Origin: a virus
IMG/VR virus record: IMGVR_UViG_3300023237_000533
Coordinates: 1 to 27,801 of that record
Length of the DNA stretch: 27,801 nucleotides
Strand: one strand, 5' to 3'
Part shown: piece by piece, positions 4,000 to 12,070 of the stretch
Numbering within the stretch: the stretch's first letter is position 1
Layout of the letters: every line of letters starts with the position of its first letter
Translations under genes and position numbers: made by a program
The notes under the pieces: model-generated
The model's database searches: none
What the model saw: the letters and a program-made list of their open reading frames with translations, nothing else
Told to the model about the DNA's origin: nothing

Positions 4000-5298
4000 A
4001 TGAGTTATTCGTGGAACAAAGACATGTCAATAGACGACCAATGGCAAAGCTGGCAAGACGCCATAGATTTATCTCTAGTACCAGATATTGATACAGATAC
4101 ATTAAAGGAAACAATCATAAAAGATTTGACCTTGGTGTCTGCTATGACAGTACAAGAGTATACACTTTATCAAAAATTTCAAGAGGTAAAGTTTAGATAT
4201 CCAACAGTAGAAACTAATTCATTCTTTGATGATAAACCTGCTATGCTGAAACCAGACCAGGCGACAGTCATACAAGAAGTAAAGAATAACTTTTGGTTAC
4301 CAGAAGACCCCGAAGAATATATGAACCTACAACCAGAACTTATCTGGACAGATGGTGCTGAAATACAATCACACACAAATGCCAAAGGTAGTGAGATATG
4401 GAATGCATTAAGAACATTCTTATCTACTATGAAAAACAATAGTAACATTGGTAGAAATTTAAACTTCTTAGTAAGAGATAAAGTAACACAGAAATATCTA
4501 GGTGTTATCTGTATGTCTAGTGACTTCTTAGACCTTACACCAAGGGACGCATACATTGGTTGGGATAGAACTAGAAAAACACAAAAGATGATTAATCATA
4601 CTTGCATTGGTAGTACAATTGTACCTATACAGCCGCTTGGATACAACCTGGTTGGTGGGAAACTACTAGCCTTATTATGTTTGTCAGATGTGGTAGAGCA
4701 AACATGGGAACATCAATATAAAGATAAACTAGTAGGTGTCACAACTACAAGTCTATATGGTAAAACTAAAGTAATACCATTATCACAATATGATAGACTA
4801 AAAAACTGGAAGAAAATGGGTTGGACTGCTGGTTCAGTTTCGTATGAACCTGAGAAAACAACTAATACCATGATACAACAATGGTTAATGAAGAACCACA
4901 CATACAAATTCTTTGAATGGTATGTTGCAAAGAAACCTAGTGGTCAACCTCATAAAAGAGACCATAGAAATAGAAGTAGAGCATTCACATATAGTAAACT
5001 AGGCATTGATAAGAAACTACAAAAGTCTGAACATGCTAGAGGTATATACTTTGGTGAGTTATTTACAAATACAAGAGAATTTTTAAGAGAAGAACATACT
5101 GAGGTTGCGTTAACTAGAAAATTTGATAATTCAGTTGAAGCATTAACAGAGTTATGGAAGACCAAGTATGCTAAGAAACGGTTGGCTAGTCTAAAGAAAC
5201 AAGACAGAGTGTCAACTGAAACCCACTTCTATGATGATATCATTTATCTATCATGGGAAGAAACTAAAGAGAAATATTTACCACAGGTAGGGAGATGA
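4000..5298 (+). CDS. DruA-like (DUF4338-like) protein, first paralogue
   Basis: This 432-residue protein is a paralogue of the one at 21032-22138. The shared core contains RDAYIGW (182-188), an LGYNLVGGKLLALL stretch (213-226) and TTSLYGKT (249-256), and the spacing between the last two blocks is the same in both proteins. The pattern (LVRD..T..YLG.I, RD.YIGW, P.GYN..GGKLLAL, Y..LVGV.TTSLYG, W..MGWT) resembles DUF4338/DruA, named from Druantia defence systems and also found in mobile elements and phages. That assignment is by eye and tentative. The C-terminal 170 residues are basic. An in-frame ATG at 4024 is an alternative start if the leaderless ATG is not used. MazG follows seven bases downstream. 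Confidence 0.8.
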   Translation: MSYSWNKDMSIDDQWQSWQDAIDLSLVPDIDTDTLKETIIKDLTLVSAMTVQEYTLYQKFQEVKFRYPTVETNSFFDDKPAMLKPDQATVIQEVKNNFWLPEDPEEYMNLQPELIWTDGAEIQSHTNAKGSEIWNALRTFLSTMKNNSNIGRNLNFLVRDKVTQKYLGVICMSSDFLDLTPRDAYIGWDRTRKTQKMINHTCIGSTIVPIQPLGYNLVGGKLLALLCLSDVVEQTWEHQYKDKLVGVTTTSLYGKTKVIPLSQYDRLKNWKKMGWTAGSVSYEPEKTTNTMIQQWLMKNHTYKFFEWYVAKKPSGQPHKRDHRNRSRAFTYSKLGIDKKLQKSEHARGIYFGELFTNTREFLREEHTEVALTRKFDNSVEALTELWKTKYAKKRLASLKKQDRVSTETHFYDDIIYLSWEETKEKYLPQVGR

Positions 5299-8311: not shown

Positions 8312-9529
8312 CTAAACACTAAACAACAAGAGTTCGTTGACTTTGCTATTAAAAAGTTTGGTTCAAACGAATTGACTACAGTTCAATTAAAAGAAGCTAA
8401 TGCCAATTTTGGTTGCAAGTATGCACCACAATGGCTAATTAAAAATAATGATTTCAAAATTGGTAAATCATTGTTCAAATTGCCTACTGAGGGAGATTAT
8501 ACTCCGTCTATTAAGGCTGAAACAAAAGGTGAAACTGAAAAAGTTTTGACTACTAAAGCACCTGAAACTGAAACTGTTTCTGAAGCTGCGTATGTAGTTT
8601 CATCATTAACTGGCAACATTGTTCCTGAAAAGGATCCTGTGTTCGTTTCATTTGGTAATTATCCAGATGTTAAGAGCATTATCAAAAGCAAGATGTTTTA
8701 TCCTGTTTTTATTACAGGTCTTTCAGGTAACGGTAAGACTATGGGTGTTACCCAAGCTTGTGCCGAAAACAAGAGAGAATTAATTAGAGTAAACATTACC
8801 ATTGAAACAGATGAAGATGATTTACTTGGTGGTTACAGACTTAAAGATGGCCAAACTGTTTGGCAGAATGGTCCTGTAATCGAAGCCATGGAGAGAGGCG
8901 CTGTGCTTCTACTTGATGAAATTGACCTTGCGTCTAATAAGATTATGTGTTTACAACCTATCTTAGAAGGCTCTGGTGTCTATGTTAAGAAGATAAACAG
9001 ATTTGTAAAACCTGCTCATGGTTTCAACTGTGTTGCTACTGCCAATACTAAAGGTCAAGGTAGTGATGACGGTAAGTTTATTGGTACTAATGTTCTTAAT
9101 GAGGCTTTCTTGGAAAGATTTCCAATTACCTTTGAACAGAAATATCCAAAACCAAGTGTAGAAGAAAAGATTTTAGTTTCTACATTAAAGGCTACAAGCA
9201 AAGATGATATAGATTTTTGTAAGAAGTTGGTAACATGGGCTGATGTAATCAGAAAAACCTACTATGATGGTGGTGTTGACGAGATTATATCAACTAGAAG
9301 ATTGGTTCACATCACTCAAGCATACAGTATCTTTGGTCAAAAAATCAAAGCTATTGAAGTTTGTACTAACAGATTTGATGATGACACAAAGAATTCATTT
9401 ATGGAATTATATACCAAAGTGGATGCTGGCGCTACTGCTGAGCAGATAAGCGAACAGCAAAGACAAGCGGATATGAGTTCACAAATGGACGACAATGATA
9501 GTGAGTCAGATGACAGCGATGCCATCTAA
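8309..9529 (+). CDS. cobS: CobS-like AAA+ ATPase (MoxR family)
   Basis: This protein has 406 residues from this start; ATG 8288 would add seven. Numbered from 8288, an N-terminal domain of about 65 residues precedes the ATPase. Walker A GLSGNGKT is at 144-151, a QNGPVIEAMERGA segment is near 193-205, Walker B LLLDEID is at 207-213, and there is a sensor-like TANT. The tail is acidic (DDNDSESDDSD). CobS is the ATPase of the aerobic cobaltochelatase, and cobS-like genes are a known feature of marine T4-like phages, where their real role is unsettled. The VWA protein just upstream, under a copy of the same promoter, is its likely partner. A strong terminator follows the gene. Confidence 0.88.
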   Translation: MLNTKQQEFVDFAIKKFGSNELTTVQLKEANANFGCKYAPQWLIKNNDFKIGKSLFKLPTEGDYTPSIKAETKGETEKVLTTKAPETETVSEAAYVVSSLTGNIVPEKDPVFVSFGNYPDVKSIIKSKMFYPVFITGLSGNGKTMGVTQACAENKRELIRVNITIETDEDDLLGGYRLKDGQTVWQNGPVIEAMERGAVLLLDEIDLASNKIMCLQPILEGSGVYVKKINRFVKPAHGFNCVATANTKGQGSDDGKFIGTNVLNEAFLERFPITFEQKYPKPSVEEKILVSTLKATSKDDIDFCKKLVTWADVIRKTYYDGGVDEIISTRRLVHITQAYSIFGQKIKAIEVCTNRFDDDTKNSFMELYTKVDAGATAEQISEQQRQADMSSQMDDNDSESDDSDAI

Positions 9530-9540
9530 ATCTATTAAAC

Positions 9541-9591
9541 ATAGTGTAAGTCCTTGGTGGAGGGGTAGTACCCTCCACCTTTTTACACTAT
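9541..9591 (+). terminator. Strong intrinsic terminator after the CobS-like gene
   Basis: A 9-bp perfect GC-rich stem (GGTGGAGGG 9556-9564, CCCTCCACC 9571-9579) with a 6-base loop is followed by TTTTT 9580-9584. A second, outer 9-bp pairing (ATAGTGTAA 9541-9549, TTACACTAT 9583-9591) would enclose it and partly sequester the T-tract. The ribosome site of the next gene begins four bases later. Confidence 0.92.
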
Positions 9592-9613
9592 CAAGGGAGG
9601 AGGTAATAAATTT

Positions 9614-9817
9614 ATGAGTATAACTGTAGAAGTTAGAGGTGGTAACCTCGAAAAAGCTATGAGAGTTTTAAAGAAGAAGGTTATGAAAGAAGGTCTAGTA
9701 AAAGAGTTAAGAGCTAGACAACACTATCAAAAACCATCTGAAATTAAAAGGGAAAAGAAAAAAGAAGGTATTAAAAACTATAAAAAGAACAAGAAAAAAA
9801 TGGAACAAGAACAATAG
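9614..9817 (+). CDS. rpsU: Ribosomal protein bS21 homologue
   Basis: This 67-residue basic protein aligns by eye with bacterial bS21 (E. coli 71 residues). It starts with the beta strand SITVEVRGG, continues with a helix NLEKAMRVLKKKV, then VKELRARQHYQKPSEIKREKKK and a lysine-rich tail. bS21 sits on the 30S platform next to the anti-Shine-Dalgarno and takes part in initiation. Marine phages, including phages of SAR11, are known to encode it, presumably to place a phage copy on host ribosomes. The ribosome site is unusually long (GGGAGGAGGT 9595-9604, nine bases before the ATG), and the strong terminator lies immediately upstream. No promoter of the GCTTGAC type is visible between that terminator and this gene. 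Confidence 0.85.
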   Translation: MSITVEVRGGNLEKAMRVLKKKVMKEGLVKELRARQHYQKPSEIKREKKKEGIKNYKKNKKKMEQEQ

Positions 9818-9851
9818 AATTCCCGCCTGTGCTTATAATATGAATAAATAG

Positions 9852-10138
9852 TGATACCAGGCAAGTCGTAAGACCTGGGGCGTGGAGGGTAGCTTGACCC
9901 ATTGCATAGCAATAAATTACAAGCCGCAGTTGGTGGTCTGACGATACGAAAACCACCACAAAATTCGGGCTCATTGGTCTTCGTAGGCATAATGCATAGG
10001 CTTAGTTAGATAAGTTAGTATAATGAGGTTGTTGACCTGCCTCAGCCCAATAAAATTTAGGAGAGCGAGAGTGAACCTAAATCATTAACATATTCACTAG
10101 GGAACTGGTAGGGATCCTTAGCCTAGTGAATGTTAATG
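9852..10138 (+). ncRNA. Candidate structured non-coding RNA or long structured leader (function unknown)
   Basis: The 408 bases from 9818 to 10225 contain no credible gene. Read on the + strand they can form a series of hairpins: CCAG/CTGG capped by GTC-GTAA-GAC, a GNRA tetraloop (9857-9878); GGGT/ACCC (9887-9900); TTGC/GCAA (9902-9912); TGGTGGT/ACCACCA (9931-9958); ATTTAGG/CCTAAAT (10055-10082); and a 17-bp stem with one 2-base bulge (10083-10138). GGGCT 9967-9971 can pair at long range with AGCCC 10044-10048, enclosing TGAGG/CCTCA. GCCTG 9825-9829 competes with the first hairpin for CAGGC 9858-9862. AATAAATA at 9843-9850 could be its promoter. The GNRA loop and the run order favour the + strand. 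Boundaries are my estimate, and I recognise no known RNA family. Confidence 0.5.
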
Positions 10139-10146
10139 TATAAATA
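10139..10146 (+). promoter_or_regulatory. T4-type late promoter box TATAAATA
   Basis: TATAAATA begins directly after the last base of the 17-bp hairpin ending at 10138. The transcript would start near 10152 and carry a leader of about 75 bases. That leader contains an AT-rich hairpin (AAATTCT 10168-10174, AGAATTT 10178-10184) enclosed by GGTTG/CAACC, then the ribosome site AAGGAGGG at 10209-10216 before the ATG at 10226. Confidence 0.6.
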
Positions 10147-10225
10147 ACAATGAACCGGTTGTTTATTAAATTCTAGTAGAATTTTTTAAGTAAGCAACCA
10201 AACAGTCCAAGGAGGGCTAAACGAT

Positions 10226-11362
10226 ATGTATATATCAGACCTAAGAAAAGGTGACTACAAGTTACCTGACGCAGTAAAAAATATCGACTTAAAAAAATCA
10301 CTAAATGCCTATGAAGAAAGCAAACATTTGTTTTCAATTAGTGGACAAGTTGATAAACATTTCAACACAAGAAAAAAATATCCATTCACACCATCAGAAT
10401 TAAAATCTGATAGAGGATGGAAAGAAATAGGTATTAAACCTGACGGTGTTGATTTTCAAACAATTGACCAGAAAATCAGAAAAGGTCGTAGTTTTGATAC
10501 TTATGCTTGGATTCCTAATGATATGATATACACCAATATCATTCACAATAGAGGAGACAATATCAATTTTACAAATATATCTACACATTTAGATTTAAGA
10601 GAAGGTTTATTTTGGCAAGCTATGAATATTACCGTAGTTGTATATTATGCTAAAGACGGAACATATAAATTTGTAACCGTGATTGGTAATCATTGTACAG
10701 CAAAATCTATTATTGTAAGTGGACTTGGTGCACCTGTATTTGCTAGAGTTGTTTGTTTAGGTAAAGAAACATCTTTAGATGAAATCAGAAAGTTTGGTGC
10801 TATTATTCATCACACAGATAGTGATAGAAGAACAAACCAAGGTGCTGAAGATAGATTAGTTTCAGGTGCTCAAGCTGGCGAACCTCAATATGAAAATACA
10901 ATGAGAGTTTTAGTTGACATGGGATTTAATATTAAAAATCAAGTGAAACAAAACGGTAAAGTTTTGAAAAAAATATCTTCTCCATCATCTTTAATGGCTA
11001 TTATCAAAGAGTTTGATTATGAAATAGTAAAAGATAATGTTAATTTGCTTAGAAAGGCATATCAAACAGATAGTGAAATCTTAACAGGAGCTTTATCTGT
11101 GTTAACAATTATCAGACACTATTTTGATAATAAAATTAATAAAGAAGTCTTTGAAGAATGGTTTATGGAGTGGTCAGGTCAATTTGAACAATCAGATATA
11201 TTTCCTAATTCAGGTAAAAATAAAGATGTTATGAAACCTGTTTATGAACTGATTAAAAATATCAATAGATGGAGTAAGAAGAATCTGAATAGAAAACAGG
11301 TTCTAATTAGCCGAAAAGATATTTTCAAAGCTATCCCGGAGGATAAACTAGAGAATATTTAA
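10226..11362 (+). CDS. Unrecognised protein with a faint ParB-like segment
   Basis: This 378-residue soluble protein has no domain I can name with confidence. Residues about 145-215 read like a ParB/DGQHR-type fold: a strand, then IGNHCTAK (153-160), a hydrophobic VFARVVCLG strand, and a later HHTDSDRRTNQGAEDR stretch. These positions correspond loosely to the GxHR nucleotide-binding box of that superfamily, but the arginine is missing. The C-terminal third is helical and charged. A strong ribosome site (AAGGAGGG, nine bases upstream) and a late-type promoter box support expression. It lies directly after the structured RNA region and before Hsp20. Confidence 0.8.
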   Translation: MYISDLRKGDYKLPDAVKNIDLKKSLNAYEESKHLFSISGQVDKHFNTRKKYPFTPSELKSDRGWKEIGIKPDGVDFQTIDQKIRKGRSFDTYAWIPNDMIYTNIIHNRGDNINFTNISTHLDLREGLFWQAMNITVVVYYAKDGTYKFVTVIGNHCTAKSIIVSGLGAPVFARVVCLGKETSLDEIRKFGAIIHHTDSDRRTNQGAEDRLVSGAQAGEPQYENTMRVLVDMGFNIKNQVKQNGKVLKKISSPSSLMAIIKEFDYEIVKDNVNLLRKAYQTDSEILTGALSVLTIIRHYFDNKINKEVFEEWFMEWSGQFEQSDIFPNSGKNKDVMKPVYELIKNINRWSKKNLNRKQVLISRKDIFKAIPEDKLENI

Positions 11363-11414: not shown

Positions 11415-11472
11415 ACTATGATACGCTCATAAGAGGTATCAAACATTAACTTGCTTAACAAAGGAGATTAAA

Positions 11473-11925
11473 ATGACAAATCACAAAGCAATTCAATCAA
11501 TTTTTACTGGACTAAGGCCGTTTACCGTGGGGTTTGACGACATGTTCGACCATTTCGACCATATGGTTGACCATCTACCACACATGACGGCTAACAATTA
11601 TCCACCATACAATATCGTAAAGACAGGTTCTTTAACATATGATATTCAAGTGGCATTAGCTGGATACAATAAGAAAGATGTATCAATCAGTTATGAGGAT
11701 AATATCCTAAAAATCGAATCAGTAAAAAGTAAAGACGAAAAAGAAGTAGAAGAAAATGACGGAGTATTACACAAAGGCATTGCTAAAAGAAACTTTATGA
11801 AATCATTTACTATTGCTGAAGATGTTGAGGTTAAAGGTGCTGAACTTAAAGACGGCCTTTTAACAGTTTCTTTAGAGAAAATTGTTCCAGACCATAGAAA
11901 GGCTAGAACAATCAACATTAAATAA
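11473..11925 (+). CDS. Small heat-shock protein (Hsp20/alpha-crystallin family)
   Basis: This 150-residue protein has an alpha-crystallin domain from about residue 45. It includes YDIQVALAGYNKKDVSISYEDNIL, a loop region rich in lysine and glutamate, RNFMKSFTIAEDVEVKGAELKDGLLTVSLEK, and a short C-terminal extension. The I-x-I/V-type tail motif is weak (TINIK). Small Hsps are ATP-independent holdases, and Hsp20 genes are a hallmark of marine T4-like phages, where a role in capsid or protein folding is suspected. AAGGAG 11461-11466 sits six bases before the ATG. A late-type promoter box lies upstream and a hairpin terminator follows the stop. Confidence 0.92.
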   Translation: MTNHKAIQSIFTGLRPFTVGFDDMFDHFDHMVDHLPHMTANNYPPYNIVKTGSLTYDIQVALAGYNKKDVSISYEDNILKIESVKSKDEKEVEENDGVLHKGIAKRNFMKSFTIAEDVEVKGAELKDGLLTVSLEKIVPDHRKARTINIK

Positions 11926-11996: not shown

Positions 11997-12070
11997 GCGG
12001 AGTTAGTATAAAAGTAACACACTTGGTTTCCAACCAAGAGAAGATTGGGCAGTACAATCACTCCGCTCCA
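11997..12070 (+). tRNA. tRNA-Gly (anticodon UCC) with an atypical T-loop
   Basis: A 74-base cloverleaf with encoded CCA. The acceptor stem is GCGGAGT 11997-12003 with ACTCCGC 12060-12066, discriminator T and CCA 12068-12070. The anticodon arm is CTTGG/CCAAG (12022-12026, 12034-12038) with loop TTTCCAA and anticodon TCC at 12029-12031. The T-stem is GATTG/CAATC (12043-12047, 12055-12059). The T-loop reads GGCAGTA instead of the usual TTCRANN: C56 and a purine at 57 remain, but T54, T55 and A58 are lost. The D-stem has an A-C mismatch and its loop (TAAAAGTAA) lacks the GG pair. Layout and length follow bacterial tRNA-Gly(UCC). It reads GGA, although GGT visibly dominates in these genes. Confidence 0.85.

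Follow-up and report, generated by a model that had tools for sequence, protein, structure and literature searches.

In marine T4-like phages the manA and wcaG RNAs have been reported, with manA located 5' of genes that include the chaperone gene ibpA (PMC2864571), GOLLD and ROOL are large ornate noncoding RNAs of phages and prophages (PMC12286853), and the ornate noncoding RNA OLE has bS21 as an experimentally shown partner (PMC12054373, PMC12286853). A published survey of pelagimyophages searched for riboswitches and found none, and reports no structured RNA at the place considered here (PMC7029224). The stretch of viral DNA that we analysed, hereafter the window, comprises 27,801 nucleotides (IMG/VR record IMGVR_UViG_3300023237_000533), and between its bS21 gene (9614-9817) and a gene for a 378-aa ParB-like protein (10226-11362) lies a gap at 9818-10225. 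Judged by comparison of sequences, this gap encodes a genuine family of structured RNAs of SAR11-type phages, better described as a set of RNA domains that can be reused; the family is apparently undescribed, and our literature searches, which covered subscription papers and preprints only in part, found no description of it.

The original prediction, made from the letters of the window, held that this gap is free of genes and forms a structured RNA, and both points were borne out. We found no credible gene within 9818-10225, the sole + strand open reading frame of at least 30 aa inside it being a 35-aa TTG frame, and the fold of the gap RNA (minimum free energy -115.1 kcal/mol) was better than that of every one of 100 dinucleotide shuffles (-95.3 +/- 4.8 kcal/mol; z -4.11), in addition to the compensatory changes among homologues described below. 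As a single structured region, however, the gap holds up only for about 9820-10138 on the + strand, a multi-domain RNA of a pelagimyophage; the remainder, 10139-10225, is the promoter and leader of the next gene (Table 1), and has matches in loci with the ParB-like gene and in a few more, but none in Mosig. This nearest named relative, Pelagibacter phage Mosig EXVC030M, is 80% identical across 9530-10082 and is annotated in the same region with two hypothetical proteins. The first of these has no open frame in the window, and coding potential of the window was rejected, as its frame from the Mosig_00015 start stops after 19 codons. The GTC-GTAA-GAC hairpin, the 10083-10138 stem and the long-range GGGCT/AGCCC pair that had been predicted are all present in the window sequence, but the GNRA loop is unconserved, its first base being A in 83/192. 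No known RNA family had been recognised originally, and in agreement with this cmscan of the window RNA against Rfam gave no family at gathering score; when E was relaxed to 5, all matches were sub-threshold and implausible.

A search with bS21 led to 80 viral loci, nearly all of which carry similar sequence immediately 3' of the bS21 stop codon. Used as a DNA pattern, the most conserved stretch matched at least 120 IMG/VR stretches; among the matches listed, 107 distinct sequences form one family, with one outlier of the same layout, and a looser pattern brought the total to 215 distinct copies of the 5' hairpin SL1. RNA lengths within the family range from about 110 to 400 nt. A pattern scan of 257 Gb of genomes for bacterial copies gave 102 matches, and such copies were rejected, as only the two phage-like L279 and L291 carry the promoter box. 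Since the structures were derived from the very sequences tested, and related sequences inflate counts, shuffle and slide controls outweigh raw pairing in what follows.

Table 1. Features between the bS21 gene and the ParB-like gene of the window
Feature	Position	Strand	Description
Outer stem P0	9820..9887	+	UUCC-CGCC 9820-9827 pairs with GGCG-U-GGAG 9879-9887
Putative T4-type late promoter ATAAATA	9844..9850	+	precedes SL1
SL1, near-invariant 5' hairpin	9856..9879	+	core 9860-9875 GGCAAGUCGUAAGACC; 215 distinct sequences
Pseudoknot PK-A	9887..9924	+	GGGU/ACCC with GCUUG/CAAGC; support moderate
H-type pseudoknot PK-B	9926..9957	+	CAG/CUG with GGUGGU/ACCACC; third loop A-rich
Module C, junction domain	9966..10049	+	GGGCU/AGCCC, hairpins, GAGG/CCUC; internal pseudoknot GGUC/GACC
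GAGA-loop hairpin	10056..10081	+	UUUAGG-AGAGCGAGAGUGAA-CCUAAA
Module E, terminal long hairpin	10083..10138	+	near-invariant core 10092-10131; palindrome AGGGAUCCUU at 10110-10119
Segment outside the RNA unit	10139..10225	+	TATAAATA promoter at 10139, leader hairpin 10157-10199, Shine-Dalgarno of next gene; assigned from sequence

The core of SL1 has the consensus GG-C-AAYUCRUAA-G-W-CC (in its wider form NNNAGG-C-AAYUCRUAA-G-W-CCUNNN), in which positions 3 and 13 covary (C-G in 183 copies, U-A in 9), and at least three of the four pairs of the flanking stem form in 173/215 copies, against 33/215 when one side is slid by one base. The stretch AAGUCGUAA of the SL1 loop in the window matches the 16S decoding site; considering that the family consensus AAYUCRUAA departs from that site, we regard the match as coincidence and rejected a decoding-site mimic. 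Upstream of SL1 stands a box with the family consensus ATAAATA or TATATATA, and in all 106 copies having ATAAATA its end is 6-11 nt from SL1. SL1 is found once in the entire Mosig genome, where the coding strand carries ATAAATA 47 times and the opposite strand 9 times; the box stands upstream of the portal, protease, gp25 and ssb genes, whereas early genes (e.g. gp55 and primase) have TTGACA/TATAAT-like promoters instead; Mosig is moreover annotated with gp55 (late sigma factor), gp33 (late accessory protein) and gp45 (clamp). T4-type late transcripts are recognised by a TATAAATA-type promoter together with gp55, gp33 and gp45, and the promoter spacing, the Mosig strand bias and the Mosig annotation agree with this. 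We infer that SL1 is probably the 5' end of a late transcript. Promoter and SL1 are both enclosed by P0, which starts 2 nt past the bS21 stop codon and keeps 7-10 bp of complementarity in 17 divergent groups, with a mean self score of 20.6 versus 14.0 when permuted and none of 20000 permutations as high; a class without P0 also exists, in which the late promoter overlaps the upstream stop codon.

Across SL1, P0 and PK-B, 96.3% of the cells of an alignment of 35 sequences pair, with a covariation score of 0.367 compared to 0.141 +/- 0.011 for shuffled and at most 0.112 for slid alignments, and stem 2 of PK-B is 97.6% paired over 35 sequences, with compensatory changes at 5 of its 6 pairs. Of 30 distinct relatives, 12 have a PK-A above the 95th percentile of shuffles, and in the wider family 80% of 136 RNAs have H-type pseudoknots beyond that percentile. 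Similarly, in module C 98.3% of the cells are paired among 22 sequences, double changes are seen at 12/22 pairs, and the covariation score of 0.428 compares with 0.138 +/- 0.014 shuffled and at most 0.053 slid (22 sequences); its pseudoknot GGUCU/AGACC becomes GGCCU/AGGCC in four sequences, the general form being GGYCU/AGRCC. The original prediction had proposed covariation among homologues as a check, and compensatory changes were thus found in the SL1/P0/PK-B set, in P0 and in module C. The GAGA-loop hairpin keeps its loop AGCGAGAGUGA while its stem varies between UUUAGG/CCUAAA, UUCAG/CUGAA and UUGAG/CUCAA. Module E is nearly identical in 56 viral contigs whose remaining domains differ, lies 116-243 nt behind SL1 in nearly all copies with enough upstream sequence, and carries a palindrome that becomes AGGGUACCUU in L024, a symmetric change; such a palindrome might allow loop-loop dimers. 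The set of domains behind SL1 differs by phage: the window has PK-A, PK-B, module C, the GAGA-loop hairpin and hairpin E, and short RNAs consist of SL1 and a single pseudoknot, in some cases with a second hairpin. Comparison shows that the predicted domains are swapped between phages while SL1 remains nearly invariant, and that this conserved hairpin stands just 3' of the putative late-promoter sequence, with pseudoknots or compact domains extending to the next gene's promoter. The 3' end of the unit shows no obvious intrinsic terminator of hairpin and U-run, so that transcription may continue into the next gene.

With a covariance model of module C (R1), the window scored 76.3 bits and Mosig 52.9. 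The module was also found outside the SL1 unit: in Kolga and Aegir, two isolated siphophages (66.9 bits; unannotated there, two genes downstream of bS21, and in Kolga between gene blocks), in the podophage-like contig L373 before an ssb-type gene (98.1 bits), in L463 just 3' of the ssb stop codon (97.8 bits), in L477 immediately behind a permuted tmRNA (96.9 bits) and in L446 (41.3 bits). In HTVC008M, Melnitz and the 146-kb contig G011 the R1 model matched nothing, and in S-PM2 no match was significant. The occurrence of module C in unrelated phages, and also 3' of a tmRNA, suggests an exchange of folded RNA parts among phages. In L187 and L454 the variable arm or hairpin of module C contains the UAGGGAUCCUUAG core of hairpin E, pointing to loops swapped between domains.

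The gene order around the RNA is CobT-like, CobS-like, (bS21), (HTH protein), RNA, (hsp20), ..., DUF3310, gp45, gp44. The RNA does lie immediately 3' of bS21 in the window, as had been noted originally, and likewise in Mosig and many others, but this position is no requirement: in HTVC008M (one gene between bS21 and the RNA), L092 and L142 it comes after an HTH-like gene that itself follows bS21, and in L094, L097 and L145 it is immediately 3' of the CobS-like gene. On its other side most loci have hsp20, L101 has a DUF3310-like gene, and the window, Mosig and others have inserted genes. Since the RNA is kept while the genes on either side change, it depends on neither neighbour. In the OM43 phage Melnitz the same place holds a hairpin that resembles SL1 but has diverged, together with a clear pseudoknot.

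The interval between the RNA and hsp20 (window 10226-11362; L323, L326, L331, L333) is a hot spot of accessory-gene insertion, with genes that differ by phage. The hsp20 leader (window 11448-11475; L092, L311, L312, L313) ends in CUUGCUUAAC..AAAGGAG, in cyanophages CUCGCUU..AAGGAG, an end that resembles a short ROSE-type RNA thermometer covering the Shine-Dalgarno sequence, and a small hairpin with a GCYNAUAANRGG-like loop stands between the promoter and this thermometer-like end. At 11997-12067 of the window Rfam calls a tRNA (42.6 bits; anticodon loop UUUCCAA by eye, odd T-arm) where ARAGORN reports none, and comparable Rfam tRNA calls occur just upstream of bS21 in L310 (2913-2983) and L111. 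Just before bS21, at window 9556-9585 and likewise in Mosig, the CobS-like gene has an apparent intrinsic terminator, formed by a GGUGGAGGG/CCCUCCACC hairpin and a T-run behind it.

Considering these comparisons, we favour, at a probability of roughly one half, the reading that the window RNA is an autonomous, late-transcribed structured noncoding RNA of SAR11-type T4-like phages. RNA polymerase directed by gp55, gp33 and gp45 would start at SL1, the 5' hairpin and pseudoknots would shield the ends of the RNA and so make it stable, and the stable RNA would serve, late in infection, as a trans-acting scaffold that binds protein or RNA; with a 5' hairpin and 3' pseudoknots or compact domains it is probably both stable and trans-acting. 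In phages where bS21 is adjacent, P0 could form as a second hairpin on read-through bS21 transcripts, around the same promoter. Counting against autonomy, however, SL1 and its pseudoknot in L094, L097 and L145 lie in the apparent 5' leader of hsp20, in the order promoter-SL1-pseudoknot-hairpin-SD-hsp20 and with no separate promoter between. Such an order would fit a cis-acting 5' leader that controls the stability or translation of a downstream late mRNA, originally that of hsp20, and additional support comes from the related leader of Melnitz and from hsp20 being the next gene at most loci. We nonetheless find this reading doubtful, as most classes have a second promoter before hsp20 (TTGACA..TATAAT, a further ATAAATA or both; the further ATAAATA lies within 450 nt in 127/189), and the RNA persists where the DUF3310-like gene replaces hsp20 (L101) or inserted genes intervene (window, Mosig).

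It is unlikely that the unit is an intercistronic stability or 3'-end element, with no job of its own, whose domains block exonucleases for upstream transcripts such as the bS21 mRNA. The places of module C after the ssb stop codon (L463), behind the tmRNA (L477) and between gene blocks (Kolga) would suit such a role, as would the start of P0 so close to the bS21 stop codon and the compact fold of H-type pseudoknots with A-rich loops, but it leaves unexplained the near-invariant SL1 loop, the fixed promoter distance and the class without P0, in which promoter and upstream stop codon overlap. In favour of a riboswitch that binds a ligand, or of a switching leader, perhaps of the manA/wcaG type reported in marine T4-like phages, manA RNAs are reported 5' of ibpA and other genes (PMC2864571), and competing helices are indeed present in the window, where the rivalry of GCCTG and CCTGG for one partner had led to the original suggestion of a switching RNA. 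Such a riboswitch or leader we now hold to be very improbable: the competition of GCCUG/CAGGC with CCAGG/CCUGG is unconserved (76 of 189 relatives versus 70.4 with swapped partners), so that the switch was rejected, and neither manA nor wcaG matches, the manA RNA of Mosig lying elsewhere. A DNA-level element (a cruciform around the late promoter, or a replication or insertion site) is barely credible, for although P0 is an inverted repeat around the promoter, module E is palindromic and near-invariant and genes are inserted just downstream, the covarying H-type pseudoknots and the GGYCU/AGRCC pseudoknot within the junction are RNA features.

For the autonomous late RNA, the phage's own bS21 is the first candidate partner. 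It is the most interesting one possible because OLE RNA binds bS21 (PMC12054373) and because bS21 is encoded in every complete phage genome checked that has module C or SL1/pseudoknot. The genomes are few: Mosig, HTVC008M, Melnitz, Kolga and the contig G011 have bS21 together with the RNA or module C, and S-PM2 has no SL1 upstream of hsp20, no significant module C and no bS21. For HTVC008M, phage bS21 is reported to be taken up into E. coli ribosomes (cited in PMC9723584). A ribonucleoprotein in which the late modular RNA binds or delivers bS21 would nevertheless be a long shot, drawn by analogy: an OLE-type SD/anti-SD mimic (the bS21 site) is not conserved, with CCTCC in 7/189 and GGAGG in 25/189 RNAs, and given this and the small genome sample we can at present only speculate about the partnership. 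If true, such a complex would alter the choice of mRNAs at which the host ribosome initiates, and the domains of the RNA, foremost module C, would be portable parts that unrelated SAR11 phages exchange and that even become joined to tmRNA. SAR11 are the ocean's commonest bacteria, and few biological entities are as abundant as their phages; an RNA that is deeply conserved and yet has domains that can be swapped offers a tangible way into the control of their late genes.

Like manA RNA (RF01745), which is reported in part upstream of ibpA/hsp20, the RNA described here belongs to marine T4-like phages. The place of manA RNAs is the 5' UTR of manA, ibpA, nucleotide-synthesis or photosynthesis genes; here the next gene is usually hsp20, often with its own promoter. 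The manA model (threshold 55.2 bits) has no match in 9500-10260 even at E 5, no manA or wcaG was found in 18 loci at gathering score, and Mosig has a manA copy at a separate locus, on which grounds a manA identity was rejected. That copy (MT647606 108164-108371, - strand) is unannotated, scores 64 bits, above the cut-off, and lies just upstream of a rubrerythrin gene; contig G011 has a manA-like RNA of 53 bits, under the cut-off. With GOLLD and ROOL (PMC12286853) our RNA shares being phage-encoded, rich in pseudoknots and outside protein genes, but those RNAs span several hundred to more than 800 nt compared to about 110-400 nt, whereas the SAR11-phage RNA is modular, outside tRNA islands and without Rfam match, the GOLLD and ROOL models among them giving no match to the window RNA. 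A homo-oligomeric RNA cage is a further mark of GOLLD and ROOL, and in this respect the conserved palindrome of module E might permit dimers through loop-loop contacts. OLE is bacterial and about 600 nt long, and its Rfam model does not match the window RNA, yet the protein that OLE binds, bS21, is here the neighbour gene in many phages. A tmRNA identity was likewise rejected: the window RNA has no model match and shows no tRNA-like domain with a tag ORF, and the annotated tmRNA of Mosig lies away from it (111467-111805). In L477, on the other hand, positions 4202-4561 hold a phage permuted alpha-type tmRNA (tag ANDNFASVDYAIAA by eye) that matches Rfam tmRNA_permuted and alpha_tmRNA (RF04321, RF01849), and directly behind it stand an H-type pseudoknot and module C.
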